From assembly GCF_008831285.2 (NCBI RefSeq), contig NC_045144.1, positions 10,147,672-10,211,671 on the forward strand: a DNA stretch of 64,000 nt, in the 5' to 3' direction. Both the position numbers and the translations under genes were made by a program. Origin of the DNA: Nymphaea colorata. Its lineage: Eukaryota; Streptophyta; Magnoliopsida; Nymphaeales; Nymphaeaceae. A model generated the notes under the pieces. That model saw nothing but the letters and a program-made list of their open reading frames with translations. It was not told the DNA's origin and searched no databases. Below are positions 1,851 to 53,209 of this stretch, piece by piece (the first letter of the stretch is position 1; every line of letters begins with the position of its first letter).

Positions 1851-1901
1851 TTATTGGAGTCAAACTCGAGCTCAACTCAAGTTCCAGCCGCGCAAAATTT
1901 A

Positions 1902-2020
1902 AGTAGTGCCAAGTTGATGTCAAACATGTATTTGGTAGCCGGGAGGTGGGAAGATGCAGCTACCATACGGGCCTTGAAGGAAAGGAGGATGAAGAAATCA
2001 CCAGGTTCCAACATTTTAGA
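1902..2020 (+). pseudogene. PPR protein fragment (E motif)
   Basis: An open stretch reads LMSNMYLVAGRWEDAATIR followed by ALKERRMKKSPGSNI. This is the conserved E-motif region found near the C-terminus of PLS-class pentatricopeptide repeat proteins (family pattern: L-S-N-x-Y-A-x-x-G-R-W, then K-K-x-P-G-C-S). PPR proteins bind organellar RNA and act in editing and processing. Only this piece is visible: no PPR repeats lie upstream, the usual Cys after PG is absent, and the text after it does not continue as an E+ or DYW domain. It is best read as a relic copied or left from a PPR gene. The motif match is clear; how it arrived is unknown. Confidence 0.7.
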
Positions 2021-2734
2021 TACAAGAAACTTTGTTGCTTCACAGGAAACATTGTGAATTATGAAAACCTTGTTAAGGCATTTTGTATGTATTTTTTTTG
2101 GGGGGGCTCTTAGTCACAAATGTTTCACTTATGAGAGGCTAGTTTAGAGGGAGAGAGGATGTACATCACATACATGTAGACCTATTTTTTCCTTGTGACT
2201 GCCAAGTTGGAGTCATAAATCTGTTCCAAGTTAATCTATCTACTGACCAGTAACTTGATCCAAAAAGGGGAGACAGAAAAAAAGAAAAAGAAAAGGATAA
2301 ATATTATTTGCCATGGAAGTCCACAAGTACTTTTCATTGCTGGTGTGGATTGAGAAATCAGTTTGTTCGGCACTTCCCCTGACTGCATCTGCTCTCGTTT
2401 TTCTTCTTTCCTATCTTATTGGTTTCTTTCTTTTCTTCTCTTTCTTTAGTCTATTTCGTGATGGATCATTTTTCACTCCAGTCCAGGGTTCCACCATGTT
2501 TTTTGGGTCAACTTGTTTTGGAAAAGTTCAGTAGTTTTAGTTTCTTGAAAGAGACAGATAGTCTTGTCCCATTATGTAGCCAATATCTCTCTAGGCAGCT
2601 GAAATGAAACAATTGCAATCCCACCAAAACTCATGTTAAGATGACAAGAAACTGGTTTTCTTTTTCCTTTGTCAACTCAAGGAATTCAGGAGACAGGAAA
2701 ACATGAAGGAATGGAGCTTAGAATGCATGCCTAC

Positions 2735-3311
2735 ATGAAAAGCATAGGAATTTTCAGCCTATTGATTAGTTCCCTTGTACTTGACTTCTTGTAAAAGTCT
2801 TCAATTCTATCAAATCCATAGGAAACCATAGAGATTGCCTTGTCAAAATCACACACAGAATTTGCTGACAGAGCTTCTTCCACATTGAAGCCCTTTCCTC
2901 TTCCCTGAAAGAGCTCCTAAGAGCAATACATAAGGCTTAGTTTCACTTAAAGAATAGCAATTTAGTAGTGAAACTAATGTGAACAAATATACAGGTTTCT
3001 TCTTCATTAGCAAAAAATTTTTTAGTGCAAACACAAACCTTGTTAGCTGGATATCTTGCAATCCCTCTGTAAATTTTTGATCAGGAATAATATGAGAAGG
3101 GTTTGACCTTGTGGCGTCCTCTAAGTCAAATGGAGTATTAATGCATGCAACTGCTATGATTGTTGATCTCTTGAAAACTTCATTAAGGTATTTGATGAGC
3201 ATATTTGCTTCATATCCCCATCCAACAGCCAGCAATGTTGACCATGTCCTTGACCTGCTAATAAATTGCACAACAATGCCTACATCGTCACTATTTGCAG
3301 CAGTAAACAAC
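2735..3311 (-). pseudogene. EMB8-like alpha/beta-hydrolase gene fragment, two exons
   Basis: Two minus-strand exons match the embryogenesis-associated EMB8-like alpha/beta-hydrolase family. Exon 1 (3,311 to 3,039) begins after an acceptor CTATAG and reads LFTAANSDDVGIVVQFI, then GWGYEANMLIKYL and NTPFDLEDATRS, all typical of the family core. Exon 2 (2,916 to 2,735) begins after TCTTAG, reads ELFQGRGKGFNVEEAL, then AISMVSYGFDRIEDFY and NRLKIPMLF, and stops at a GTAGGC donor. The frame is broken near 3,048: one missing base turns an expected L-A-N-K end of exon 1 into QLTR, so exon 1 cannot join exon 2 in frame. The N-terminal exons and the last catalytic exon are absent, and decayed copia sequence lies beyond 3,500. 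A relic gene, probably cut up by transposon insertions. Confidence 0.8.
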
Positions 3312-4379
3312 CTATAGAAAAGGGATAACTGAAAATTACTGCAAGGAAATAACCCGACAAAAAAGCAACAGTAAGAAAGTGAAAATTGTTCCTTGCAAGA
3401 AATATTTTGGAGATGACAATATGGACATAGAAAAGGAATTCATAGTATAATCATCCAACACCAAAATTAAAAGAGAGGGAACAGTATATCAAAATTGTCC
3501 ATTGTTAGAATCTAAAGAACAGAAAGGTGTTAGATGCCCTAAATGATGATACATATGTGATTGTAACAAAAGATGTTACATGTGTGAATTTAGAAGAGAA
3601 TTTAGTGTGACTCGAGTAAGTCATCCATTAGTCGCGTTAGAGGTGATAACTTTGCACACTTTAACCTATCAACAAGTACATATGCATGTATTATTCAATC
3701 ATAAGGCAATGAAATGATATCTTGCGTAAATATTCCTTTAGGCATATGGATATGTTCCTTAATTATTATACGTAGGTTTCAAATTCATTCATAGCTATAT
3801 GTCTTCATGTAGGTATTACCTAAGATTGACTAGACGTCAATGCTCTATAAGACCCCATGATATTGAATGTTCTCATAAGCAACATTTTTAGATTGGTTTC
3901 AAGATGGCACATGTGTTTGTACCATTAAAATCCACTAACTTATCATACAAATAAACAATATGCTACATCTAATATTCATATTTTCTATGTAACAAATTTG
4001 TCAAAAATGTGATTATCAAAGTTAACATGTTCTACATGATAATGTATGGTTGTCTCAATTTTTTAGAAAAATTAGGCTGTGATGCAATAGCTTCATACCT
4101 AATGAGTTTAGATTTCATACAAGGAGCAAAGAAATCAACATGAAGTACAAAATTAGTAGTGTACTTGTTATTGCATAGACCTCTAATTTCTGGAGTTCAA
4201 GAGATACGAATCTTACGATTGGTGGAGTTCAATGCCATGAATTTGTCACAAACATATAGAGGTCACTTATAGAGAGACTCTAAAGTTTGTTTTGTTCACA
4301 TGTGAATAATATGTTGTTCTTAGTTCACATGGTTGTGAAAGAACTTTTATTCTAAATATTGCATTTCTATTTGATTTAC
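3312..4379. other. No gene seen; probable 5' part of the adjacent copia remnant
   Basis: No coding region can be supported. The stretch from about 3,500 to 4,379 leads directly into recognisable copia integrase sequence and may contain its eroded LTR, gag and protease, but no motif is readable. Confidence 0.35.
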
Positions 4380-6610
4380 ATGTCTCCATACCTCGCAACA
4401 AAATAGAGTTGCCAAGAGAAAGCATCACCAACTGATTGTTACACATATATTATGTTACATATCATTTACCTACTTATTTTTTGAGAGATACTATCCTAAC
4501 AACCTACTATTTTATCAATCATTTCATCATTTAGCATCATCTTCCATTGACAATCAAGTGTCCCTCAAACTTGTTTATCTTACTCATCCATTATTTTCAG
4601 TTGCTCCCAAAGTTTTGGATGTATGTACTGCATTCAAATTCTTAGACCTAAATGTGATAAACTAGTTGTCAAGCAATCAAGTGTGTGTTCATTGGCTATC
4701 CTCGAAACAAAAAAAGATAAAAGTGTTTTGATCATTTATATCAAAAAAAGTATATTAGTGTGGATGACACTTTCTTTTAAGTCTTAGTCTTACTTTACTC
4801 AACCTCTTACACTCGTGGAAATGCCAACCTTGGTTCCTTTGCCTATCTCTCTAGTACCACTACAATCTTGTCCATCTAACTTCTCACTTAATGTGAGGCA
4901 GTTTCATTATCTTTTGTTGGTCTACACATGTTGATAGGACCTCACCCATGCTCATCCACCAAAATCTTTTCAAGATGTACGTATTACTAAGGTGAGTAAA
5001 TGTGATTCATTTGCTCCACATATAGATGTATCTGACCATTGTCATGACTTGCCCATTGCCCTATGCAAAGGAAGCAGCAATGTACCTTGCTTCATATCAT
5101 ATTTCATAGTTTGTATTTGCTAACCACGTTAGTGACAACTTGCAACAATTCCTATATGTCATGTCAGCTCATGTCATTTCTGCCTGTTATCAATAGGCAT
5201 TGTTGGAATGTAAATAGCGGTAGACTATGCAGGATGAGATGGATGCACTATTGCAATGTAGCACATGGTACTTAGTTGATCCTCCTACTGACCGCGATGT
5301 GTTTGGCTCCAAATGGCTTTGTAGAACTGTACAAAGCTTGCTTGGTAGCTAAGGACTATACTTAGACTTACGGAGGCGACTTTTTTGAAACTTTTTATGT
5401 GGTGGCTAGATTGGGAACTAGTTGTCTTATTATCTCTGTTATTGTCTATTCTAAGTGGCCCATGTGTCAGTTGTGAAAAATGCATTCATGTATGACGACT
5501 TTAAAGTGATCGTCTATGTGCGGCAACCTCCCAAGTTTGAAAGTTTGAATGAGTGTGGAAAAGTATGGACTCAAGTAGAGTCCTCATGCATATTCCACAA
5601 ACTATCTGCAGTGATTTTACAATGTGAATTTAAGAGATCTTCACTTGACTATTCTCTGTTTATAAAGAAGACCTTCAAATTTATAGTTATTATAGTAGTC
5701 TATGTTGATGACATTATTTTAATAGGTGATTGTGATCAAGAGATTTTGGCTTCAAAGGCGATCTTTTATAAGCACTTTGTCATGAAAGATCTCAGTTCAT
5801 TGTGATACTTTTATGAGATTGAAGTTGCCCTTAAAAAGAAATGTACAGTCATATCATCGAAGAAGTATGTTCTTGATATGCTGCAAGATAGAAGGGTGTT
5901 AGAATGCAAGCTTGGCACTCTACCCATTCTCCACCTTCATGATAATCAGTCAGAGTTAGTTGATTCATGGTCTTATAGATCTCTCATTGTCAAGCTTCTT
6001 TATGTCACCATGATTGGCCCGGATATTAGTTTCGTATATGGTTGCAAAAATATTTGAAGTCAAACCCAGGTAAAGTTTTCTATTCAAGAAAGGTGAGACA
6101 CTAGAAATTGAAGCATTTAATGATGTAGACTACGCAAGGTCAATAAAATATAGAAAGTCCACCATTGGTTTATATTTCTTTGTAGGTAGAAACCTTGTAT
6201 CGTGAAGAAGAAAGAAGCAAAATGTAGTCTCTTGGTTGAGTGTCTGAATATAAAGTAATGACTCAAATTGCTTTTGAGATAACTTGGGCTAAATCAATGT
6301 TGACTAGCCTAAGTATATCAATTTCTCTTTCTATTGAAATGTATTGTGATAACAGGGCTGCCACATATATTGCCAACAATTTAATCTTTCATAAGAGAAC
6401 AAAACACATTGAGGTGAATTGTTATTATATTCACGATCTTGTTCAAGGAGGAATATTGTCTACTATGCATGTGGCTTCTGATGATCATGCAATTGATGTG
6501 TTTACTAAGGCTCTTTTCATTGGTGACTTTTTTATATATAACAAGCCGAGCATGATGAATATTTGCGCCCTAGTTAGAGGGGGAGTATCAAAACAAAAAC
6601 ATCATTGGAT
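4380..6610 (+). mobile_element. Degenerate Ty1/copia retrotransposon (pol remnant)
   Basis: Scattered frames follow copia pol order. Near 4,390-4,580 is a worn integrase core (relic of TPQQNGVAERK, then an alanine-poor ILT-TYF-IN stretch). 4,610-4,790 resembles the integrase C-terminal region (VFGC, DKL, GY-like). 5,230-5,480 holds the start of reverse transcriptase (EMDALLQCSTWYLVDPP, KNAFMY). 5,455-5,805 is the RT core with YVDDIILIG and MKDLSSL. 6,110-6,590 is RNase H (ST-GLYFFVGRNLVS, KKQNVVS, MYCDNRAA, FHKRTKHIEV, TKAL). A purine-rich tract at 6,573-6,584 looks like the polypurine tract before a 3' LTR. Many stops and shifts make it dead. A 5' LTR could not be identified. Confidence 0.85.
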
Positions 6611-16360: not shown

Positions 16361-16426
16361 GACGGAGTGGACTGCAGTAGACGGTCGAGGCCCTATTTGA
16401 TCTACAGTAAATACTAAATATGATCT

Positions 16427-16935
16427 AAGGAATTAAAAGAAATATAAACTGTTTAAGTAATTAACAAAATAGATATTCCATTGAATAAAACTCCGGTTAT
16501 TTAATTATTGATTTAGAACTTTTATATTATTTTTAAATACCATGGAATATCTACCATTTTCTTTGAAACAAGTACTTTATTCATGAAAACTTGTTTAGTT
16601 GGTTGGGTTAATTATAAAAGTTTGTTTGATTTCAAATTGTTTAATTAAAGGAAACATCTTTTAAATGATTAAATAAAATTAACTTTTATCCTAAGGAATT
16701 AAAAGAAATATAAACTGTTTAATTATTTTAGAAAATAGATACTTCATTGAATAAAACTCTGGTCGTTTAATTATTGATTTAGAAATTCTATAATTATTTT
16801 TAAACACTATAGAATATCTAACATTTGCTTTGAAACAAGTGAATTGTTTATGAAAACTTGTTTACTTGATTGGGTTTATTCTAAACGTTTGTTTGATTTA
16901 AACTTTTTTAATTAAAGAAAGCATCTTTAACAAGA
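16427..16935. repeat. Tandem duplication, period about 267 bp
   Basis: Two diverged direct copies begin at about 16,427 and 16,693, each with AAGGAATTAAAAGAAATATA. Both run through GAATAAAACTC, TTTAATTATTGATTTAGAA, GAATATCTA, TTTGAAACAAGT, GAAAACTTGTTTA and GTTTGATTT to AAGAAA/AAGGAAA-CATCTTT. Many substitutions separate them, so the duplication is old. No coding content. Confidence 0.85.
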
Positions 16936-23458: not shown

Positions 23459-23556
<98 letters not shown>

Positions 23557-24002
23557 ATGTACATTACATATATTAGTGTGCTAATATATGTCTTTCATAT
23601 ATAGATATGTGTATATTTTAGGGTACCTAGGTCATACTTGTAATTTTCCTTTTTCTTTTATGTATTTTTCTATTTCTTTTTACACCTTTATTATTATTTA
23701 AGAGGGGAACTACCTGTTGGGCCTCTCTCCAACTGCTAGAATTCTAGCCGTTGGAAATGGCCCAACAGCCATTTCCCCTCCTCCTCTCTTCTTCCCTTGT
23801 ATTATAAATAAGGGACTGTTGTCCCCTTTTAGGTTATGGCTTGTTAAGCCACATCTTGTAGTATTTTGCCTTGTTTGGTTGAAGATCAATATATTTTCCT
23901 TATCCTTTTGTTAGAGGATTCTTGTGTAGTGCCTTGTTGAGTTAGTGAGAGATTCAAGAGTGATATTCTTGAAGTATTTGCCTAACTTGGGCCTGATTTA
24001 CA
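23424..24002 (+). repeat. 5' LTR of the copia element
   Basis: 579 bp, TG...CA. It contains an expanded (TA)n then (TG)n tract (23,443-23,555), a near-palindrome at 23,729-23,754, and a TATA box ATTATAAATA at 23,801-23,810, which should start the genomic RNA. It is 84 bp longer than the 3' LTR, almost wholly through the microsatellite. Confidence 0.95.
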
Positions 24003-24015
24003 TGGTACCAGAGCC
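24003..24015 (+). other. Primer binding site (initiator Met tRNA type)
   Basis: TGGTACCAGAGCC directly follows the 5' LTR. It matches the common plant copia PBS TGGTATCAGAGC with one change and should pair with the 3' end of initiator methionine tRNA to prime minus-strand synthesis. Confidence 0.9.
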
Positions 24016-28416: not shown

Positions 28417-28450
<34 letters not shown>

Positions 28451-28897
28451 CATGTACATTACATATATTAGTGTGCTAATATATGTCTTACATATATAGA
28501 TATGTGTATATTTTAGGGTACCTAGGTCATACTTGTAATTTTCCTTTTTCTTTTATGTATTTTTCTATTTCTTTTTACACCTTTATTATTATTTAAGAAG
28601 GGAACTAGCTGTTGGGCCTCTCTCCAACGGCTAGAATTCTAGCCGTTGGAAATGGCCCAACAGCCATTTCCCCTCCTCCTCTCTTCTTCCCTTGTATTAT
28701 AAATAAGGGACTGTTGTCCCCTTTTAGGTTATGGCTTGTTAAGCCACATCTTGTAGTATTTTGCCTTGTTTGGCTGAAGATCAATATATTTTCCTTATCC
28801 TCTTGTTAGAGGATTCTTGTGTATTGCCTTGTTGAGTTAGTGAGAGATTCAAGAGTGATATTCTTGAAGTATTTGCCTAACTTGGGCCTGATTTACA
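28403..28897 (+). repeat. 3' LTR of the copia element
   Basis: 495 bp, TG...CA, with a short (TA)n(TG)n tract (28,419-28,449), TATA box ATTATAAATA at 28,696-28,705 and a perfect nested inverted repeat at 28,608-28,664. Confidence 0.95.
28608..28664. repeat. Nested palindrome in the LTR upstream of the TATA box
   Basis: The inner part is a perfect 26-bp palindrome (28,624-28,649; half-site CCAACGGCTAGAA). It is enclosed by an 11-bp inverted repeat GCTGTTGGGCC (28,608-28,618) and GGCCCAACAGC (28,654-28,664). It ends about 30 bp before the TATA box. In the 5' LTR the same structure has one mismatch in each layer. It could be a cruciform, an RNA hairpin if transcribed, or a dimeric transcription-factor site; the sequence alone cannot tell. 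Confidence 0.9.
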
Positions 28898-29930
28898 TCA
28901 TCAACTCTCTTCCTATAAAAGAGATGTTAGAAATGGATCTAAGGGTATTGTTATGAAATGGAGGAAGTGGGTGTGGGACAACAAATCTATTCCGAGAGCA
29001 TGTTGGTTTGTGTATATTGCTATGGCAGATTGCTCACTGATTCCAGATTGCAAAGATATGGGGTTTCTTGGCTTCTAAGTGCAGGTTGTGTCAGCAAACT
29101 ATTGAAGATCACAATCATGTTCTGTTTTACATGTCATTATTCCTTGATGATCTGGAAATTTGTTGCTTCCAAATTTGTGATCTTTGTTAAACCTAGAGAA
29201 ACCTTCTGCTCCATGTTTTTATGGTGGCATGGTAGGCAATTCTCGTGTAAAGAGTTTAAAGTTTGCTGGATGATTTGTTTCAGGCTTTCAGCATCACGGT
29301 TTGGAAAATATGGGGGGATTTAGGAATTTGTACTCCCATGAAGAAACTTATAAAGATGTTCCTGAAGCCAGGCAAGAAGTTTGGTGGGCATGTTTTGAAA
29401 ATATTTTGAAACACCACTGGAAAGATCCGATGTTTATAAGGCAATCCATCTATGGTTGTTGATAGGAGTGTTCAGTCCCTTCTAGCATAATGATAGTTTG
29501 GAAGGATATCTGATTGAGATCGGCTCTGCAAAACCGACAAGCTATTTTTGTGTTGTCGTTTTTTGGTATAATGGAGAAATCATCTCCAAGCAAGCTCTTC
29601 CTGATACTTGATCTAGTGGTTTTGTTGAAACTGACTATGGCTAAGCCTTCTGCAGTATGTTCCTGATTGTGCGAAGAGTTTGGCTCAGAGAAAACAACGT
29701 GCAATGGAAATCATGGCTTCATGGTCTTAAGGAGTCAGCTTTATATCATGATAGTAATGTTCTTGGCAAGATGATAGTATGTAAACAAGCTTTATCTTTT
29801 GATGTTCTTACCTTGCTTTCTGAGCACAGGTTGTTAGACCTTTTGATCGACTTTGATGTACATTTTTTTTTTCTCCAATGGAAGGGGACCACCTTAGCCC
29901 ACTTTCGTCGGACAATCACACTCCCATCCT
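28898..29930 (+). mobile_element. LINE, 3' segment (resumes after the copia insertion)
   Basis: The LINE continues after the copia element. 28,945-29,110 carries the reverse-transcriptase zinc-binding region (IPRACWFVYIAMAD, then LLTDSRLQRYGVSWL and a CQQTIEDHNHVLF stretch in shifting frames). 29,640-29,915 is an RNase H-like domain (MEIMASW, KQALSFDVLTLLSEHRLLD, and a final LAHFRRT like the family's LAH-LA-). It is heavily decayed. No clear poly-A tail was found; A/T runs at 30,090-30,125 may mark the end. Confidence 0.75.
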
Positions 29931-38860: not shown

Positions 38861-40763
38861 TGTTGCAGACCGATTATGTATGGCCCGACCATGCCAGTAG
38901 AAGGATATGATACTTGGCCAGCTTAAGTATTGTTCAAAAAGCATGTGAGATTCAATCGGATGCTAAGTCATGCAGAAACCAATGCACGTGGATGTGCAGC
39001 ATGGTGGTGCACTGACAAAGCGTATAAATGCATATGCTGTGTTTACAACCGCGTAGAGTCACGCGGGGATGAACAAGTGAATACTAATCATCGAGTAGGG
39101 CGATGCTTGGCCGCCTTGCTTAATGACATATAGTCGTCAACTGGCTTCAGCTGGAAACTTCTTCCTAAGGGAAGTCTACTTCTACCCAGATTTTGTATGA
39201 AAGTAGATAGACACTTGGCGGAATGACGATGTTCTGACATGGCCTCATGGCCACGGCTTGTCAATGGTTTACAATGGGATAAACCTGGGTGATGGTGTGC
39301 CGAGTGCATAGCACTCCTCATTTAGTATGCAGTCCCAAAAGGTTGATGAAGACTTCCGCTAGTTTAAGAATGAGTCAGGCTGGCCGAAGGCTTGGGAAAC
39401 CCTTCGGCACCACGCGGGCCAAATAGGCTTGAAAAAGTCAGCCTGAGACAAGTGGTATTAGAGCAGACGATTTCTCGAAAAGAACTTGAAAATAAGAATG
39501 CTGCAAAGATAAGCAACAAATGGTTTTGAAAAACATTGGCTTGTTTGGTGCCCCATGGTTTGGGCATGTTTGTCAGACACTAGTTTAAGTGACAACGTTG
39601 GTGTTGACAAGATAGAGATCACATGCTTCGAAGATGGTGTCTGGGTGTCATGAGCATAAAGGCCAAGAGAACTGCTCACTGAGACAGATAGGGTGAGAGG
39701 CCCAACGTGAAAAGGATTGTCCAAGGCAAGTGCCCTTAGTGTTTACATGACTCAAGGGAGCATGTAGAGCAGAAGTTGGCAACACATCTTGAAAACTTGA
39801 GATTTAGTGGTCGTCAGATAAGTTCCAGACTTTACTAAAAAAATGTACTAACAGTGATAGAAAAGTAGGAAGAAACTAAGGATAGATTAGAGGCAGAACA
39901 CCCGATAAGGTCGGTTGCTGCGATGTGACAGGTGCGTCAATCAGACGGATGTAGTCTCAATTGAAAAGAAATGAAGGGGATGGCTGCAGAATTTCTTTTG
40001 CTCGAGACAAAGTCACTACGGACAGTGACGATTTGGCAGTGGGAGAATGTTGCAAACCGACTATGTATGGCCCGGTCAAGCCAGTGGAAGGATGTGCTGC
40101 TTGGTCAACTTAGGCATTGCTCGGGAAGCATGTGGGATCCAATCAGACACTAAGTCAAACAGCAAGCAATGCATGTGGATGTGCAGCGCGGTGGTACAAC
40201 GACAAAACGTATAAATACATCAAGGTCATCAGTCCCTTTGGAAGTACAAGTCCATCATTGGGGAATCAAATGAGTTTTCCACGCGTAGCGTTTAGATGCA
40301 CACGGGGGTACACATGGGTTAGGGGCAATTCTCCCAGTGGATGCATATGTTGCGTTCACAACCGCGTAGAATCACGCGGGGATGAGCAAATGAATGCTTA
40401 TCATTGAGTAGGGCGATGGTCGACCGTCTTGCTTAATGACATATAGTTGTCAACTGGCTTCAGCTGGAGACTTCTTCACATGGGAAGTCTACCCTCACAC
40501 AGATTTCGTATGAAAGTAGATAGACGTTTGGAGGAATGACGATGTTCTGACAGGGCCACATGGTCACGGCTTGCTGATGGTCTACAATGGGATAAACCTG
40601 GGTGATGGTGTGCCAAGTGCATACCACTCCTCGTCTAGTCCGCAGTCCCAAAAAGTTGATGAAGGTTTTCGCTAGGTTAAGAATGAGTCAGGCTGGCTGA
40701 AGGCTTGGGAAACCCTTCGGCACCACATGGGCCAAATAGACTTAAAAAAGTCGACCCGTGACA
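38861..40763 (+). mobile_element. Short non-autonomous LTR element (TRIM/LARD-like)
   Basis: LTR 1 spans 38,861-39,450 and LTR 2 40,048-40,763; both start TGTTGCA and end with -GACA. The flanks are GTGGG on both sides (38,856-38,860 and 40,764-40,768), a perfect 5-bp target duplication. GTGGTATTAGAGC just after LTR 1 resembles the Met-tRNA primer site, and GCAGTGGGAGAA before LTR 2 can serve as the polypurine tract. The 597-bp interior has no gag or pol motif. LTR 1 lacks about 125 bp present in LTR 2 (around 39,028 against 40,216-40,343). The LTRs differ at many sites, mostly transitions, so the insertion is old. Both keep a CGTATAAAT TATA-like word. Confidence 0.9.
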
Positions 40764-40989
40764 GTGGGTGCTAACCCTGCTACTACAAATGATGTGAGTA
40801 ATATCTCATGTACTTGTTTGGTTTCCTTTCATGACCTTCCTTAGATAATAGACATTGGATATGCATATTATATGACCCCTCGATTAAAGCATTTATGTGA
40901 CATCTAAAGTTTAGCACCCAAACCTAAACATGTCAACCTACCCAATGATCATCAAATCATGGCACCCAAGTTGTTCAGATTCACTTCAA

Positions 40990-43260: not shown

Positions 43261-45658
43261 CTAGCATTTCAGTACAAGGTAAATATATATTTTGAAAACA
43301 AGTTGGATCCAAACCAATATTTGGTATCAACTTCAAAACTCTTTGAACATAATTTCAAGACCAATAATACATAAAACCACATTTAAAATTATAAGTAATT
43401 ATTTCTGCTTGTAAAACAGAATTTAAGATTCTTTGAATCAAACCCATAACAAGTTTCAAATCTACCACCAAATGACAAATTTCTGAAAAACTCCTTATTA
43501 ATCAGTGTTGGTCCAAACTACTTTGACTCCCAAAGTTTGGTGAATTCAGGGTAATCTACCTAGCCTGCTTTTGACAAAAATCATATTTCAAATAAAACAG
43601 AATAGGAACTAATGCGTATTCAAAGCATCACTGGTTGGATTAATTGAAATCATATTTTAATTTGAATGTATATAGGACAACTGAATACGAACCAAAACAT
43701 CTACTTTAATGTAAATGGGATCCAAATCCAACTCTACTGATTCTTTAAACCAACTCGTATGTCTTTTATACACCTTAACTTAGAAAATCCCTGCAATAAT
43801 AGGTGTGAACTTATTTTTCTGTGGAAAGCTCGAATCGGCCAAATTACACCCAACTTAGGATCCCAATCCAATTCATCAAAAGTAACCAGTTTATACATAG
43901 AACCATCATAAAAAAAATGGAATAATAAAACTATATCTCAATATTGTTCGTCCAAGCCTCAAATCCAACGTAATCACTCTTTCTAAAATCTCAATTGAGC
44001 AAGAAAAGTATATTTATAAATTAATTTTTAGAAAGCCTAATAGAAACTGTTTTTTGAAGCTGAAGGAGAGGCAAGGATAAATTTTCAGCTTAAGGCCTGT
44101 TTTCAGAAATTTCCAGAAATTTACAAAACTGGGAGGCGATTCATGAACACCATTTTTTGAAAATATGTTCCCAGACATGACGCAGCACAAACAGTTTTCC
44201 AATTGTAACACTGTTTCGGAAGAGGATAGAAAACTAGAGGGCGGGTTTGAAATTTCCCTTATAAAGCATAAAAACCTTCTCCCGCGCCGTTCGTCAATTT
44301 CTTATTTCTTCCCTGTTTTTGAACATTTTAGAAAAATCGTGGGCCGATTTTGAAATTCGTCTTCTAAACCCATAAAAGACCCCAGTGTCACCCGAAACAC
44401 TCATTTTTCTCACCTCTCTTCCCTTCCTTCACTCAATCTCTCCCTCAAGCTGAAGCTTTCTTGGCAATTTCCAACCATGACCGACTTCCGGCGATGCACA
44501 GGAGCGACGACGCCACTGTCGGCGGTCGACCTAAGCGCCGGGAAGAAAACACAAGGTGCATCCTCCTACCCTGTTTGTTAATTTTCTTTTCATTATTATT
44601 ATTATTATTTATTTTTATTTGTTTCAGGTCAGACACCAAATATAAAATTTTAAATTTTAAAAGACACCAACATGTAAGTAAAAAAAATTACTCAAATATG
44701 CAACAAAAAAAAACAACAAATATGCACCCCAATAAAAAGAAGGTGGGGGCATTTTAGAAAATTTGTATCTTTGTATGTACATTTTAGTTTTTTAAATGTT
44801 TTATAATTACCTTTTTGTTTTTTCAAAGTTTTTATTTTCTACTTTAAGGAGGGCGTTTCAGCCATTACGCACACCTATGCATGCACAGCGGTATGCACTT
44901 TTCCAGCTTCGTGCTTAGAGCAGCTGCGCAGGGGAACAAGACACAGAGCGATCGTAAGGGTGCACAAACGAATCAATAGAACATGGGAAACCCTTCTCAA
45001 CGCTCAATTGTAGATCTGAAAATCATGAAATATACTATGCATGCAGGTGAATATGGAATGTCGACATGCAACAAATCGTAAATCAGATGTAGGCATTCAA
45101 TGAACATCACATACGGATGTAGCATCATGTAAGAATGACATATTCTCATTAGAAGCAAAGATAATAGAAGTGGATCCAGATAAGTTTAAAGACATGCATA
45201 GGTTCGAAACATTGCAAACGCATCTTGATCAGAACATCAATGTATGATGTTCTAGATTAACAAGTTGGAAAAGCAACATGTTCACAATCGAAGTGTGAAC
45301 GCCACCACAAGTGATAGTTTAAACGGTAGCACCACTTCCGCAAGTCATAGCATGCATGAAACCACTCTTGATATTGATCATGCACACCCACATTACATAT
45401 TGAATATCATTGAAACCAGGCGAGAGGCATAAGCTAGACAAGAAGCAGACAACGTTCCTAGCCTATGCACTCAGCTCTCAACAACCGTGAACTGGACAGA
45501 CGCATGCACCCCTCAACACTCACGAAGCAGCAAGGACGGAGAAATGAATAAAAGAAAACAAAGAAGGGAAGTTAAGATAATGATGGCTGTATAAGAGGGT
45601 TAGGAATTTAAAGAGGGATTTTTGGGTGAGCAGAAGGCAACCCACCACCCGAAAGAGT

Positions 45659-45727
<69 letters not shown>

Positions 45728-46334
45728 TCATTAAGGTGTGAATACCAGCTATATAAAGCCATGCATGCTAATGAACTAATAAAGAATGCTATAAGTTTTA
45801 TTTGCTCTTACTCACGTAGTTGTGTTTTTTGTGGGTAGTGAAACTGTTTTAGTCTTGGGATGGTGCTCAAGGCTGGCTTCCTTGAGAAATACTAGAATAC
45901 TAGAATATATGTGAAATGACAAATCTTATATTGATACAAAAAAGGACACTGATGTCATGGGACATGTGGTTGCGAACTGAGTTTAGTGGATGGTTTTATC
46001 TTGAGAAGTAGTAGTGTGGCATGAGCTTACTATGGTTGCATGCTCCTGTGTATCTACTAGATTGCCCATAGGCTATTGGGTGTCACAAGTGCCTAGAATG
46101 TTATTATTGTTGTTTTAGAGAGTGAGGCTTGGTCCCTCAACTTAGGACCTAGAGGAGATGGTTTGCCACTTTGGGTAATACCATCAATTATATCTTAAGA
46201 TGCTTCACTAAAGGTTACCTTCAATCATTGTGGATTGTTTGGTAAAGATGATCACTCGGCATTGAACTATCGTCGTAACTTTGTAACTCATTATGGATCG
46301 TGTTATCACATTTGTGATAGTAAGCTATAGCCAT
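43261..46334. other. Unassigned repeat-like DNA
   Basis: No supported gene. Probably includes the rest of the antisense LTR. At 44,400-44,570 a CT-rich leader after CATAAAAG is followed by ATG and a GC-rich open stretch (MTDFRRCTGATTP) ending at a GTGCAT donor-like site; this could be an LTR leader or an orphan first exon. A (TA)n(GA)n tract lies at 45,661-45,726. Confidence 0.35.
45661..45726. repeat. (TA)n(GA)n microsatellite
   Basis: About 48 bases of TA followed by about 18 bases of GA. Confidence 0.95.
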
Positions 46335-46540
46335 GGTGTGGCTAGGGCTGTTCAACGAGTCGAGCTACTCGAGCTCGACTCGTTTAACTCGACTCGTATG
46401 TTTAAATGAGCTGCTTATTTAGTTAAACGAGTAGAGATCGAGTTGATGAGCCGACTCGTTTAATTAATCGAGTCGAGTTTGAGTTCATTTGAGTGAACTC
46501 GTTAAAGCTCGAATCGGCTCGATTATTTAGTGAACCGGTT

Positions 46541-46564
46541 TTTTAAAACCGGTTCAGATGAGAA
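46541..46564. repeat. Inverted repeat in the left arm of the hAT element
   Basis: GAACCGGTTTT and AAAACCGGTTC form an 11-bp inverted repeat with a 2-base spacer, just inside the ACGAG-rich left subterminal region. Confidence 0.85.
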
Positions 46565-48355
46565 AGCGCCAAAGCGGGAAAAATTTTAGGGTTTCCTCAT
46601 TTCCTTTTTTCGTTTTCGTTCTCACTTCTCCCTCTCTGAGCTCTCTCCGACTCTCCCTCTCTCGCCTGACGCGGACGCTTCTCGGTCTCTCCGACTTTTC
46701 CTTCTCCTCTCTTCTCTAGTTCTCCCGTCTAGGAGTCTCCGACATCTGCAGGAGGAACCAGTTGTCCGCGGGCCGCGTCCGTGGGCCACTTCAGCCTTCA
46801 GCCTTCAAGGTCAGCCGGCTGCTCCGCCTTCAGCTCAAGGTGAGGTCTTCCACTTCTCAGTCTCCAGTTCTGTCACTCTAGTTCTCCCGTCTTGAACATG
46901 TAGTTGATAGACTTAGAATATCTATCTTTGCGTGCATGTAACTGGAGTTTGTTGATGTCATATAGTTATTTTTGGGGATTCATTTATGATAACGATATGG
47001 GTGTTATGTAGATAGGTTTTATGTTTCTTTTAAGGGTTAAAGGAATAATCTCGATGGATCTTTCACCCAAAACCGTGAACAGGATCGGCTATTGTTGTAG
47101 TTGATTTTCTAGCGATTTCATCTGTTTTTTACCCCATTTCTTGTTGGATTCCTAACACAGTTGTGATCTAGTGTATAACAACTGATTTGAATGTTAACAC
47201 ATCGTCTTCAGACTGGATTTTGCCAGAAAATGCAGTGTTTTGTACAGTTCTTCCGTCAACATAGAAAGTTATGGCTTCGCCCAATTTTTGGTGCTTACAT
47301 AAACCATAAAAGTGTTTTGTACTTTACCTTCCTCTTTTTATAGTTTTCAACAGTTTATGCAGGATGCATGGTCTGTCAGAATGCGAATATTAATATTCTT
47401 TTGTTAGTAGAAGTCACTTTTGTTGGTTTGAGCTACAAGATATACCTCGCAAAGGTATTTCAGAGACTTAAACAAATGAATAGCCCATAAAGTTTCAAAT
47501 GTTTGAGGCTTGAAAGATATTTGTTCATGGAAAAAAGATCTAAGAGTTTATTCTTGGCAAGATGATTACACTAGAAAGACTTTTGTTCATGAAAAAAGAT
47601 CTAAGAATTGATTCTTAGCTAGATAATCGTGCTGAAAACAGTTGATGTCTGATTTGAGAAACATGTATACCTGTTCTCGTGCTTGATTTTTTTTATTAAC
47701 CATTTTCCTGGATTACAAATAAATTCTTTATGAATAATCTTTCAGAATTTCCAGCTTGTTTGATTGATATACTTTCCATTTGTTATATTGATCAAATCAA
47801 CAATGTATAGGTTTGTGCTTGGAATTTAAATTGCAGAAATTGGTCTGTTGCAACTGTTTTTGTTGATAACAAGAGGGATTGTGCTTGACAGAGAGGTGAG
47901 TTTTCTTTATTTATCAAGAGTTTAACTGGACAGTTGGCTGTGTTTTGTGAGTTTATTTATTTAAATTGCAAATGGTTTATTTATTGCAGCTGACCACCCA
48001 TCTAGCACCCTTGGTGTTGCAGCTGGTTCTTCATTGCTTGCACTGAAAAGTATTATATACCACCCCTTCTCCTCCCTCTGTCTCTCTCGATCTTATTTGA
48101 ATCCACACTTCATGGTATTCAGTATTTCAGTGATACACATAAAAACACACGTTCACTTGTTAGCTAATGATAAGTGCTTTCCACTCAATATATGCACATT
48201 AAACTTGGCTTGTACTAGAGTTTAATGTCGTTAAGTGAGTTATTAATTGACAGAGTCATTTGTTTAATCTTGTAAACATTTGTTGGTTATTTCTATGTAC
48301 AACTTCAAAACTTTTTCTTGCTTTTGATATTAGAAAATGATATGCACATATGTAG

Positions 48356-50130
48356 CCATGCGACACTGGAGCTGCTGGATATACAATCAAGGAGGCAGTA
48401 TCTCTTGTTAGAAGCATGGTGAGCACCAGATCATGTATCATAGCAAGAGCCCTGATATTCTGTTTGCTTCTATAGCTGTTCTGTTACAGTCACCAATGGT
48501 CTACTAAAGTTATGATTCTACTGTTGTATTTGCATTTGACAAGATTCCAGGACAGCGAGCTCTTGCTTTGCAACTTTTGGCTGTTGTACTTGAACAGGCT
48601 TTGTGCAGTTTACAACCACAAAATGTAACTGGTTGCGAACTTGGTGTCGCTCAACATGGTGATGATTCTGTTGACTGTGAAGCTCTTTGGGCTTACGCTA
48701 TTGGTCCAGAACCAGAACTGCTCTTAACTTTAAGGTAGATGTCTCATTATATCTACACATAAATATTTGCTTCACTGAGTTTTCTTTAGTCTTTTTTGGT
48801 TATCATAAGAAGCTTTGGAAGAAACAAAAGTAGATGTGGTGCCATGTACAAATAATCTGTGAACTTGGTGGATTTGTTTCACTGGATTTTCTTTTAGCAT
48901 CCTTTGTTACCATTCTCTTGAAGAAGGAAAAATAAATGTTCAATAGTGTATACATGGTCTGCTAACTTTCTGGTTGTCTTTCGCTTGACATATCTATTGT
49001 CTGACAAGCTATATGGGCTTAGAGCAAACCTCCCAAGCTTGTCTTCTTGTAGGTGTCTTGTGTCCTTTGTAGATATGCAATGTAAACGTGCTTCATTATG
49101 CCACAGTTAATTCATATTTTCTAAATTATAAAAAGGAATTTATGTCTGTGTATTGTATATGTTTCTATTTTTAGTTGCTTTGTTAAGTACAACAGATGTA
49201 AGATGGCTGGAACAATGATATTTTTATTGATTGGAGAAGATGTCTTTCAATATTTTGAAATATTGAAATTCTTGATGAAGCAAACCATTTATACTTTTCT
49301 TTTATTGTTATCTTTATTTTTCTGTTTCATGTACTATGATTCCTTTACTTACTGATTGTGCAAATTGAGAAGCATTTAATTTTACTTTGTCTCTCTCATA
49401 ATCCCGAAAACCTCAACAATTATTTACAGAAGAACTTTGAAACTCTTGGTCCATACCCCAGAAGTTGTGAAGAACCTTCTTTTTTTGCCCTGAACATTCA
49501 TGTGCTTAGAGTCTTAGACTGATCAAAGGTTGCAGGAAATTGCAGCAAGATTGATGAGGATGGGGGTACTCCCAAGAATCCGCTACATCATGGAGGTTAG
49601 CATAATTTTTCTCATTGAATTTTCTCTATTCCATGTGCGTTCCATGTGCTAATTTTGTTTCAACTGTGTAATTAGGGAACTTGCTGTGACCTCCTTCTTG
49701 CACACATATTGGTCAATATGTTCTCTGCAATTTTTTAGGAGTCATTTCCCAAGGTCTGCTTTTTAGCATTGCTGCATCCAAGCAGTATCCATGTATACCA
49801 CTCATGTGGGTCATCAGTGAATCAGTGAATGTGCAATAGTTTTTGATAGTCATTAGTTGTGTCTACCCTGTTGTGATTTTGAAGCACATAATGCTGTTTC
49901 TGTTTTCTCATGCTTGTGGTTATTGTTTTTCAGATGGATCACAATGTTGTTGCTGACTCGCTGAGGAATACCTTCTACCTGTCCTTATTGCTTTTGCACG
50001 TCATTCTCCTGCATGTGCACGTGCTATCATGGAATGTCCTCGGCCTGTCGACACTGTCATTAACTGCTTTGTTAAAACAAAAACCTTACTTTTGAAACTT
50101 ATCATGGGCTTCCTTTCCATTGGTTGCTCT
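48356..50130 (+). pseudogene. Captured MINIYO/RPAP1 C-terminal exons inside the hAT element
   Basis: Four exon-like blocks, all plus strand and in gene order, match MINIYO, the plant RPAP1-type regulator of RNA polymerase II nuclear import and elongation. A: 48,356-48,418, TGAAGYTIKEAVSLVRSM, donor GTGAGC. B: 48,544-48,734, IPGQRALALQLLAVVLEQAL and later CEALWAYAIGPEPELLLTL, fully open for 63 codons, donor GTAGAT. C: 49,536-49,595, acceptor TTGCAG, EIAARLMRMGVLPRIRYIME, donor GTTAGC. D: about 49,957-50,130, AEEYLLPVLIAFARHSPAC and ARAIMECPRPVDTV, donor GTAAGT. Because introns and splice sites are kept, capture was from genomic DNA, not from mRNA. The exon expected between B and C (MALDDNH region) was not seen, and a TGA lies in frame just before block D. 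Further exon-like pieces at 47,836-47,895 and 47,990-48,050 could not be assigned. Confidence 0.8.
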
Positions 50131-50169
50131 GTAAGTACCTAGTTGCAATTACAATGTAAACAATGAAGT

Positions 50170-50200
50170 GCACGTCATTCCCCTGCATGTGCACGTGCTA
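50170..50200. repeat. 31-bp copy of captured exon D (filler-like)
   Basis: This stretch repeats 49,996-50,026 of exon D with one mismatch (it begins GCACGTCATTC and ends GCACGTGCTA). It is bracketed by two copies of AACAATGAAGTG (50,159-50,170 and 50,204-50,215). Confidence 0.9.
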
Positions 50201-50273
50201 CATAACAATGAAGTGAAAAAGATAGCAAAATTTCATCATGTACACCTTAAACGAGCTAAAGGAAGAGTCAGTG

Positions 50274-50357
50274 CCTAAACGAGTTAAACGAGTCAGCCCG
50301 GCCTAAACGAGTTAAACGAGTCAACGCGGCCTAAACGAGCTAAACGAGTAAATTGTT
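50274..50357. repeat. 28-bp tandem subterminal repeats of the hAT element
   Basis: Units of 28 bases start at 50,274, 50,302 and 50,330, each opening CCTAAACGAG(T/C)TAAACGAGT; the third is partial. The repeated AAACGAG word also occurs outside the array, in both arms. Probable transposase-binding array. Confidence 0.85.
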
Positions 50358-50554
50358 AAACAAGTTAACGAGTTATTTGGGTTAATCGAGTCGAGCTCGA
50401 GCTCAACTTTGTGTAGTTGAGTCGAGCTCAAGCTTGATATAAGAAGCTCGACTTGAGCTCGAGTCGAGTTCGAGCTCGAGTAATTTTAATCGAGTCGAGC
50501 TCGAGCTGGCCAAGCTCGGGCTCGGCTCGGCTCGTGTGCAGCCCTAGGTGTGGC

Positions 50555-53209
50555 TTGAAAGCTTCAACTCATGGGTGGTGGTCTTGAGCCTGTATACTAG
50601 AATTAAAGACTTGTTTGATTAGCTTAAGAATGCAAAGGTATTCTCCAAGATTGATCTGAGGATGGGTTATCATCAACTTTTGATATCGGAGGAACATGTT
50701 GTTAAGTCTGCCTTTCGAACTAGATATGGACATTATGAATTCAGGGTCATGCATTTTGGGTTGACCAATGCTCCCACAGCATTTATGGACCTTATGAATC
50801 GGGTTTCCCAAGACTATTTGGATCGGTTTGTTATTGTTTTTGTGGATGATATTTTGGTGTAATCAAATAGTGAGGCAGAACATAGATATCACTTAAGGAG
50901 TGTGTTGGGTATTTTGCACAAACATAAGTTATATGCTAAGTACTCAAAATGTGAATTTTGGTTAGAGAAAGTAAACTTCCTTAATCATGTGATCTCAAAA
51001 GATGGAGTTTCCGTCGATCCGGTTACGGTGTTGGTTGCACAGGACTGGAGGATGTCATGCAACGTAACTGAGGTAAGAAGCTTTTTGGGATTGATAGGAT
51101 ACTATCGCAGGTTTATACAAGACTTTTCAAAAATAGCTACGCCCATAACTAAACTATTAAGAAAAAGAGTGAAATTTGTTTGGAATGAAGAGTGCAAAAG
51201 GAGTTTTCAAACTCTGAAGGACAAGCTTACCACCACCTCCATTTTGATGCTTCCATCAGGTCATTCCGGATTTGTAGTGTACTCCGATGCATTGCTAATC
51301 GGTTATAGTTGTGTTGATGCAACATGATTGCGTAGTGGCTTATGCATCAAGACAGTTGAAAGAACATGAAAAACATTATCCCACTCATGATTTGGAATTG
51401 GGAGCGATAGTGTTCGCACTAAAGATATGAAGACACTATCTCTATGGGGCAATATTTGAGATGTTTACGGATCACAAGTCATTGAAGTATATATTCTCCC
51501 AAAAGGATCTCAATCTGAGACGAAGAAGATGGATTGAATACTTAAAGGATTACACTTTCAAAATATCATATCATCCAGGAAAGGCGAATGTAGTGGCTGA
51601 TGCTTTGAGCAGACATGCTAAGGCAACGATGTGCAGTATGTTGACTCATTCTTGGGCATTGTCGCAAGATATGATAGCATGACTGTCTTACCTATGTGAC
51701 GAGAATAAAGCAACAATGACGGCCTTGATATGATATCATTTGTTGGAAGAGTTTATCTTGAAGCATAAAGAAGATCCTGATTTTGCTAAAAATATAGAAA
51801 AAAGTAAGAAGACATATATATTCTCTTTGGTATCAAGATGAATATGGTTCATTGTGGTTTCGATAAAGATTGTGAGTCCCTAGAGATGAAGATATGAAAC
51901 ATCAGTTGCTTGATAAAGCTCACAAATCTAAATTTGCTATACATCCTAGCGGTACAAAGATGTTTCATGATATGAAACGAAATTTCTAGTGGCCTAAAAT
52001 GAAGCGCGAAATTGCAGAATATGTGGCAAAATGCTTAGTTTGCCAGTGGTTTAAAGCAGAGCATCAAAGGCCAGGAGGCTTGTTGTAGAGTATTAATATT
52101 CCAATGTGAAAATAAGAGGATATTACAATGGATTTTATGGTTGGTTTGCCACACACTAGAAGACAATATGATACCATATAGGTGATTGTTGATCGACTTA
52201 CAAAGTTCGCCCATTTTCTGCCAATCAGAATCAGTCAATCTTTGAAAAATTACAAAGTTATATGTTGGCGAGATAGTGAGATTGCATGAAGTGCCAAAGT
52301 CTAATATTACAGATCGAGATCCACGTTTTACCTCTAGGTTTCAAGGGCAATTACTAAAGGCTTTGGGTACTAAACTTAAGTTGAGCACAGTGTTCCACAC
52401 TCAAACTGATGGGTAATCTAAGAGGACCATCTAGACAATAGAGGACATGTTGCATGCTTGTGTTTTGGAATAGAAAGGACAATGAGATAAACATGTGAAA
52501 TTGGCAGAATTCGTTTGTAATAATAGTTACCACTCTAGTATCAGGATGGTGTCTTTTGAGGCCTTGTATGGAAGGTCATGCAGATCGCCAGCTTGTTGGA
52601 TCGAATTTGGTGATGCCAAGATTGAAAACCCTTTGGTATTGCAACATTACACCGATCAAGTACAATTGATAAGGAAAAGATTGTTGACTGCTCAGAGTAG
52701 ATAGAAAAGTTATGCCGACATTCGACATAGAGAGTTGATTTTTGAGGTTGGTGATCATGTGTTTTTAAAAATTTCTCATACTAAAGGCGTTTTTGGGTTT
52801 GGTATTACGGGAAAGTTGAACCTGAGGTTCATTGGACCTTTTGAGATATTAGAGAAGATTGGAGAGGTGGCATACAAATTGACACTACCACCTAATTTGA
52901 GTCATATTCATGACGTTTTCTATGTTTCCATGCTTCGAAAGTATGTACCAGATCCTACACATGTGATTGACTTCCAATGTATTCAAGTGCAAGATGATGG
53001 AAGAAAAACCTATTAGAATTTTGGATCAAAGAGAGAAAGTACTTCGCACCAAGAGAATTCCTCTAGTAAGAGTGGAATGGCAACACCATGGGTTGAAGGA
53101 GAGCACATGAGAACTCGAAGATGATATGCAAAAGAAATATCCACACTTATTCTTACATTGAGGTATGATTTAAATTTCGAGGACGAAATTTCATTTAGGG
53201 AGGATAAGA
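50555..53209 (+). mobile_element. Ty3/gypsy chromovirus remnant (Tekay/Del-like), 5' half missing
   Basis: RT begins within its second block at about 50,599 ([20 protein letters not shown]) and continues [35 protein letters not shown] and catalytic IVFVDDILV near 50,850. The RT thumb SFLGLIGYYRRFIQDFSKIA is followed by RNase H (51,310-51,610: [34 protein letters not shown]). Integrase spans about 51,900-52,700 (KMFHDMKRNF, CLVCQ, VDRLTKFAHFLPI, ITDRDPRFTSRFQ, EALYGRSCRSP). The C-terminal region VSMLRKYVPDPTHVID leads to a chromodomain-like tail (RILDQREKVLRTK, IPLVRVEWQHHG, LEDDMQKKYPHLF). That tail is typical of Tekay/Del chromoviruses. Many in-frame stops. Gag, protease and the RT start are absent; a hAT element occupies the left junction. 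Confidence 0.88.

Follow-up and report, generated by a model that had tools for sequence, protein, structure and literature searches.

A non-autonomous Pack-hAT element of Nymphaea colorata carrying pieces of MINIYO and RHIP1

Introduction

Pack-MULEs are carriers of gene pieces that belong to the Mutator superfamily and have long terminal inverted repeats (TIRs). Carriers of the same sort in the hAT superfamily, the Pack-hATs, are a known but thinly described kind of element. The subject of this report is a 4204-bp, non-autonomous hAT element at positions 46343 to 50546 of a 64-kb stretch of the Nymphaea colorata genome (contig NC_045144.1, here C7), a stretch referred to throughout as the window. 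The element contains pieces of MINIYO and of the gene for RGS1-HXK1-interacting protein 1 (RHIP1). We are confident in reading it as a Pack-hAT whose MINIYO sequence would have been captured once, by template switching, and spread by transposition, and whose leader would come from a transposase gene.

Pack-hATs of maize and rice were described in 2022 (Gisby and Catoni, PMC8903248); that paper and the others cited here were accessible in part, and statements about them refer to those parts. The maize and rice elements resemble the one in Nymphaea in their hAT TIRs, their 8-bp target site duplication (TSD) and their host gene pieces, which in maize often come from more than one locus; they differ in host and in that their TIRs were chosen from Ac and Bg, and the accessible text mentions neither a shared leader before sense cargo nor cargo in a transposase-bearing copy (PMC8903248). 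A 2011 study of maize Ds elements with gene fragments (two Ds2 and nine Ds-l4) described such captures as rare among hATs. These Ds elements share with the Nymphaea element the superfamily, the 8-bp TSD and the presence of intron-containing gene pieces, but they have 11-bp TIRs and AAACGG repeats, unlike the 8-bp TAGGGCTG and the CGAGTCGAG and AAACGAG repeats found here (PMC3260210). In the Nymphaea family, cargo also occurs in a transposase-bearing copy.

Animal Pack-TIRs, of which many are hAT, followed in 2021. One of these, Pack-hAT-N8_XT of the western clawed frog, likewise has a captured piece that was amplified to several sites, each with a distinct TSD, and template switching is discussed for it, although the piece is a 291-bp part of the 5' untranslated region of one gene in an animal host (PMC8277862). 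Soybean Tgm-Express offers a further likeness, as gene fragments moved by a transposon are spliced into new exon combinations, but it belongs to the CACTA superfamily (PMC1947982). In Pack-MULEs a promoter supplied by the element has been stated for the Mutator TIRs (PMC3310237), whereas the Nymphaea leader adjoins subterminal repeats and is part of a hAT family. A 2026 review does not use the word hAT in its accessible main text (PMC13317346), and the literature searched, with most subscription papers outside its reach, held no description of this Nymphaea family. Features that look new are the exclusively sense orientation of cargo behind a shared leader, the occurrence of the same cargo in several subfamilies and the presence of cargo beside a transposase.

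The element and its ends

The element is bounded by TAGGGCTG and CAGCCCTA, which form a perfect 8-bp TIR, and flanked by an 8-bp TSD, GGTGTGGC, that is exact at all eight positions. Its features are given below with strand and, in brackets, their basis; L, P and C numbers denote loci, proteins and contigs of the comparison.

46335 to 46342, no strand: left copy of the TSD, GGTGTGGC (exact match to 50547 to 50554)
46343 to 50546, plus strand: whole non-autonomous hAT element, 4204 bp (TIR, TSD, subterminal motif, near-full sibling)
46343 to 46350, plus strand: left TIR, TAGGGCTG (pairs with the reverse complement of the right end; at most one mismatch in relatives)
46351 to 46560, plus strand: left subterminal region with CGAGTCGAG and AAACGAG repeats (motif count)
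46560 to 46844, plus strand: CT-rich leader, then a CAAG/GTGAGG donor-like site (alignment of left ends, L034 and P0008)
47965 to 48048, plus strand: RHIP1 exon piece, in a module at 47797 to 48163 (protein match, tblastn)
48360 to 48418, plus strand: MINIYO exon piece 1, from residue 389, with the 5' capture junction at about 48360 (tblastn, parent alignment)
48419 to 48543, plus strand: captured MINIYO intron (4 differences in 124 aligned bases against the parent intron)
48544 to 48734, plus strand: MINIYO exon piece 2, residues 408 to 471, with W452C (92% to Nymphaea thermarum MINIYO)
49533 to 49595, plus strand: MINIYO exon piece 3, residues 572 to 592, original 5' side deleted (tblastn, parent alignment)
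49934 to 50088, plus strand: MINIYO exon piece 4, to residue 641, frame-shifted, with the 3' capture junction at about 50088 (tblastn, parent alignment)
50089 to 50130, plus strand: stretch of unknown origin before a donor-like GTAAGT, also in L012 (junction comparison)
50169 to 50200, plus strand: 32-bp filler repeating exon 4 sequence, with AACAATGAAGTG on either side (97% to 49995 to 50026)
50242 to 50538, plus strand: right subterminal region with CGAGTCGAG and AAACGAG repeats (motif count, genome search)
50539 to 50546, plus strand: right TIR, CAGCCCTA (match to left end)
50547 to 50554, no strand: right copy of the TSD, GGTGTGGC (match to left copy)

A bare 16-bp match of TIR plus TSD is weak evidence and could be due to chance. 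The real window contains 11 such pairs against a mean of 0.53 in dinucleotide-shuffled windows (28 of 60 shuffles gave one or more), and the ten other than the element's own are seven AT-rich runs and three pairs in a repeat at 23.5 to 28.7 kb. What makes the element call solid is that CGAGTCGAG is confined to the ends, as all seven copies in the window lie inside the element's two ends, and that there are relatives with both ends and a TSD.

In searches of the Nymphaea colorata genome (407.8 Mb, 783 contigs), 40 of 1657 candidates were scored with the element, 40 of 574 with the left end of the family and 40 of 1177 with its right end (all 40 matching), so that copy counts are lower bounds. 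Among the 27 loci compared (L009 to L035), 11 have both ends and a TSD, or 10 without the duplicate L011. The TSD is 8/8 in L015, L017, L024, L026, L029, L030, L033, L034 and L035 and 7/8 in L010; the TIRs are the same as TAGGGCTG or differ by one mismatch, and L017 and L030 each have one mismatch between their own two TIRs. Both ends with a TSD were not obtained within the stretches examined for L012 to L014, L016, L018 to L023, L025, L027, L028, L031 and L032. L018 gave only a weak candidate, with two mismatches in each of ends and TSD, and L016 is the same place as L035, for which both ends and the TSD were obtained over a longer stretch.

The consensus start of hAT TIRs is YARNG. The superfamily assignment rests on the 8-bp TSD, the short hAT-type TIRs and the hAT transposase domains in L034 and L035, relatives with the same ends. 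The element is not of the Ac/Ds type, given its perfect 8-bp TAGGGCTG and its CGAGTCGAG and AAACGAG repeats in place of AAACGG, nor is it a Pack-MULE, as the TIR is only 8 bp long and relatives carry a hAT transposase; pieces of MINIYO and RHIP1 inside a non-autonomous element make it a Pack-hAT. No transposase domain was found in it by Pfam in six frames, where RPAP1_C (E 2.2e-4, below the Pfam cut-off) is the sole named match at E<0.01, joined at E up to 1 by a TopBP1 domain (0.082). The original prediction, made from the sequence alone, had claimed matching TIRs, an exact target duplication and the lack of a transposase motif, and was correct on each count.

The MINIYO cargo and its parent gene

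MINIYO and RPAP1 have been described as essential for the onset of stem-cell differentiation (PMC6748027). Four blocks of the element match MINIYO by tblastn, in order, at 48362 to 48421, 48544 to 48735, 49533 to 49598 and 49960 to 50088, corresponding to residues 389 to 408, 408 to 471, 572 to 593 and 599 to 641 of 1547. A protein search with exon 2 considered 97 candidates and gave three matches: Nymphaea thermarum MINIYO (92%), Abrus precatorius MINIYO (55%) and an unnamed Victoria cruziana protein whose domains are those of MINIYO (73%). The blocks are thus from MINIYO, as had been proposed, and from no different family; they do not, however, represent the C-terminal region, since residues 389 to 641 are the middle of the protein and the domain named RPAP1_C lies at 357 to 425 in P0002.

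The parent gene is L009, the one MINIYO gene found, at 22.0 Mb on contig C4 and not on the element's contig, with exons for residues 1 to 985 within the 9.9 kb examined; there is no full MINIYO gene at the element's own locus. Element and parent are collinear, introns included, in four pieces with 93%, 88%, 92% and 89% DNA identity. Because introns are present, the sequence was copied from DNA, and a retrocopy is ruled out. One might still regard the locus as a plain MINIYO duplicate, retro- or segmental, with merely hAT-like flanks, given that a 16-bp TIR and TSD match is expected by chance about once per two windows; but the retained introns exclude the first form, the parent is on another contig, a sibling has the same two ends with a different TSD, and relatives encode hAT transposase, so that this explanation is barely conceivable.

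Three stretches of the parent are deleted in the element, and their joins, as placed by BLAST, overlap by 6, 7 and 2 nt. The first deletion took the exon for residues 471 to 507 and the 5' part of the next exon, to about residue 571, and with it the original acceptor of block 3; exon 4 is shifted in frame by an 8-nt insertion. The expectation of four ordered blocks with splice sites kept therefore stands for the order and fails at block 3. In the exon stretches compared, 28 of 429 sites are different from those of the parent; for the introns the figures are 4 of 124 and 43 of 779. The exons of the window copy have 18 nonsynonymous and 7 synonymous codons relative to the parent, against a simulated mean of 18.9 nonsynonymous (P 0.41). 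All these counts include changes on the parent's own line. No coding constraint, as a functional chimeric gene would have, was detected on these exons, and the substitutions look neutral. A MINIYO peptide from the window copy was rejected as a candidate on the frame shift, the lost exons and the neutral-like substitutions; a MINIYO-like protein, or the new MINIYO-derived peptide that had been suggested, is unlikely for this copy.

Compared with the parent, the captured intron has at 49812 to 49828 an exact tandem duplication of 8 bp, ATCAGTGA, as long as a hAT footprint. Further 8-bp differences between element and parent are the insertion in exon 4 and one near 49460.

Copies and a single capture

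A near-full sibling of the element, L010 on contig C9 (4040 bp, 97% identical over query positions 210 to 4204), lies at a different site and has a TSD of 7/8. L010, L011 and L013 are 99.4 to 99.6% alike through their flanks and hence represent one insertion; three separate insertions are ruled out. The segment containing the C9 sibling is present three times at about 99.5% identity (twice on C9 and once on C647), with L013 matching only into part of the element, and this triplication is either a recent segmental duplication or assembly redundancy.

The MINIYO piece is also found in L012, L014, L015, L016, L027 and L028. The 60 bases ahead of the MINIYO anchor are the same in the window, L010, L012, L014, L015 and L027, that is, in 6 of the 8 Pack loci, except that within this 60-base junction string the window copy differs by a single base on its MINIYO side. 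L016 and L028, in which no anchor was found, match across the junction by BLAST. In addition, 8 of 39 variable sites, not polarised, are fixed in the eight Pack copies against the parent. One capture of MINIYO would explain the shared junction and the fixed sites best. The TSDs differ among the window, L010, L015 and L035, all with MINIYO cargo, implying that the cargo was mobilised after its capture. As L012 retains the exon deleted in the window element, the internal deletions are secondary, and as it also has the 32-bp filler with the arrangement of AACAATGAAGTG copies, the filler dates to the capture or soon after.

RHIP1 and other cargo

The translation of the RHIP1 exon piece matches RHIP1 of Nymphaea colorata (P0006) at 82% over 28 residues (E 1.8e-4 against 5.8e9 sequences), and of 11 candidates P0006 was the sole protein with E no higher than 10; RHIP1 tblastn in the window gives E 4e-9. 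The surrounding module recurs at 91 to 96% in L017, L018 and L019, each with the RHIP1 exon; in L017, which has no Pfam cargo, the exon was detected by tblastn.

The family carries further host sequence, identified by Pfam: PDS5 (5.8e-15) and a PTP-like phytase (1.2e-12) in L024, a kinase (6.9e-8) and Tubby (2.1e-4) in L029, and another part of PDS5 (6.5e-6) with a kinase (5.8e-4) in L030. There are copies with these TIRs both with and without MINIYO. The view of a hAT that captured MINIYO is borne out, although its single-gene picture overlooked the RHIP1 piece and the multi-cargo family. No Pfam cargo was found in L026 (three leader-direction frames), L033 (six frames) or L021 (three frames). 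Weak Pfam matches were seen in L022 (O-methyltransferase) and L023 (matrixin and PG_binding_1).

Eight cargo pieces were found in six elements, namely MINIYO, RHIP1, two parts of PDS5, a phytase, two kinases and Tubby, and each runs in the sense direction relative to the leader at the left end or to the left end itself. The scan of antisense frames covered the window, L017, L024, L029, L030 and L033. The two-sided chance of eight of eight is 0.008, and that of five of five, for pieces above the Pfam cut-off only, is 0.06; the two PDS5 and the two kinase pieces are perhaps not independent in this count.

Transposase-bearing relatives and exchange between subfamilies

In a genome search for the hAT dimerisation domain, all 150 candidates scored, out of 1113, were matches, and three of these (on C13, C3 and C11) lie between listed left and right ends of the family with a 699-codon open frame. 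L034, on C13, is 6750 bp long with a TSD, CACACGGG, of 8/8, and its open reading frame of 698 residues contains hAT-like_RNase-H (2.5e-28) and Dimer_Tnp_hAT (3.4e-28). The leader is at its left end (86%), with the transposase frame on the same strand. L035, on C4, is 6922 bp long with a TSD, TTGGTGAC, of 8/8; it has the MINIYO piece at element positions 1006 to 1635, followed downstream by frames of 230 and 452 residues, the latter with both hAT domains. This layout shows that cargo can sit ahead of transposase sequence, and the transposase of L035 may be interrupted by an intron or no longer intact. L015 (2970 bp), whose right part is 99.5% identical to L035 after a jump from 2405 to 6304, reads as a deletion derivative of the L035 type.

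The MINIYO cargo is 91 to 98% identical where the left ends are 68 to 69% (L012, L014, L015, L016, L027 and L028) and the right end is 85% (L015), and the RHIP1 cargo is 91 to 96% identical where the ends are 74 to 83% (L017 to L019). Higher identity in the cargo than in the ends at these loci fits an exchange of pieces between subfamilies, and the alignments fit a window element that would be a composite of at least three of these; alternatively, the ends may change faster than the cargo.

The leader and chimeric models

The leader aligns across ten left ends, with CAAG/GTGAG at its end in eight. It is family DNA, fronting the transposase in L034 and occurring in elements with other cargo, and for this reason a 5' untranslated region of RHIP1 or MINIYO is ruled out as its origin. 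It is a putative untranslated first exon.

A predicted protein of Nymphaea thermarum, P0008 (194 residues), is encoded on a contig other than that of the full MINIYO gene. Its residues 4 to 51 correspond to the leader and are followed by about 40 to 50 residues of other origin and then MINIYO exon 2. P0008 and the window copy have in common a W-to-C change in exon 2, where the parent gene and the full proteins P0002 to P0004 have W, which suggests that the capture and the pairing of leader with cargo are older than the split of the two Nymphaea species. A second short MINIYO model in Nymphaea thermarum, P0007 (154 residues), ends within one residue of the window 3' junction. In the window copy, the P0008-like reading of the leader is interrupted by a stop.

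A sense chimeric leader-MINIYO RNA is possible, as hinted at by the gene model P0008. Antisense action on the parent gene, which had also been put forward, gains no support from the layout, as cargo and leader share a strand. A chimeric transcript might have a host function, for example as a sense RNA from which small RNAs against MINIYO are made, or through a P0008-like peptide. Leader and cargo on one strand, the uniform sense orientation of cargo and the annotation of P0008 as a protein would agree with this, but the exon substitutions of the window copy match the expectation for sequence free of constraint and its leader reading contains a stop, and we regard such a function as quite improbable.

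Capture and spread

The reading we prefer starts with a DNA break inside a relative element, repaired by template switching into MINIYO in a single capture. The MINIYO piece would then have been eroded through internal deletions, come to be common to several subfamilies and spread through transposition, with the transposase of L034- or L035-like elements moving the non-autonomous copies. The leader would comprise the promoter and the 5' untranslated stretch of the transposase gene that belongs to the family, and this promoter would transcribe sense cargo downstream into chimeric, mostly non-coding RNA. The 3' filler and the overlaps of 6, 7 and 2 nt at the deletions fit template switching.

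Cargo might instead have been acquired by fusion of neighbouring elements, in which the outer ends of two nearby insertions are mobilised together. This model has been proposed for Pack-CACTA and Pack-TYPE elements and for Pack-hATs too (PMC8903248), and the window element is indeed a mosaic of modules from different subfamilies. Fusion is disfavoured, however, by the lack of an internal TIR: the window has a single TAGGGCTG and a single CAGCCCTA, with CGAGTCGAG only at the ends, although internal ends could have been deleted. The 32-bp filler and the deletion overlaps also point to copying, and on this evidence fusion is unlikely.

Several points weigh against capture by template switching followed by transposition and transcription from the leader. 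The 5' junction has little microhomology. Transposition is read from TSDs, and transcription and splicing of the element are predictions from its layout. Among the ten left ends aligned, L026 and L033 lack the donor-like site, and none was detected in L034 or L035. In L035 the transposase is divided between two frames, with no Pfam match in that of 230 residues. Of the eight cargo matches, three do not reach the Pfam cut-off (Tubby in L029 and the two in L030), and a parent locus is established for the MINIYO piece only.

Beyond the capture itself, we tentatively suggest that the hAT family may act as a directional exon trap, a possibility we hold with some doubt. A fixed transposase promoter and leader would have sense cargo settle behind it and ahead of the transposase gene, sometimes in copies with transposase sequence, so that the same first exon would be given to many host genes, cargo would be exchanged and chimeric models such as P0008 would arise.

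Genomic setting

Downstream of the element, the window at 50557 to 53000 contains pieces of a Ty3/gypsy-type reverse transcriptase, RNase H, an integrase zinc-binding domain and SH3_Tf2-1, in shifting frames. The reverse transcriptase piece (RVT_1) directly downstream covers only profile positions 56 to 203, and no Pfam domain was found in the three plus-strand frames of 44000 to 46342. As the reverse transcriptase begins at profile position 56 and that upstream stretch has no domain, the element was inserted beside or in a broken retrotransposon.

Elsewhere in the window, a 468-bp direct repeat (23536 to 24003 and 28431 to 28898; 98.5% identical, 4.9 kb apart) looks like the two terminal repeats of an LTR retrotransposon inserted fairly recently. 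Diverged direct duplications (87%) are present at 39028 to 39455 and 40341 to 40767 (429 bp) and at 16425 to 16661 and 16691 to 16928 (239 bp).

Conclusions

Gene capture by hATs is thinly documented, and the route by which cut-and-paste elements take up host sequence is still argued. Here, a single genome assembly from a lineage that diverged early among angiosperms offers the MINIYO parent, a more complete copy, copies that were eroded and mobilised again, and a carrier of the same cargo that also has transposase sequence. Comparing these copies allows the order of events to be read, from capture and filler to deletions, exchange and spread. In addition, the shared leader and the sense orientation of the cargo predict that captured exons would be transcribed.

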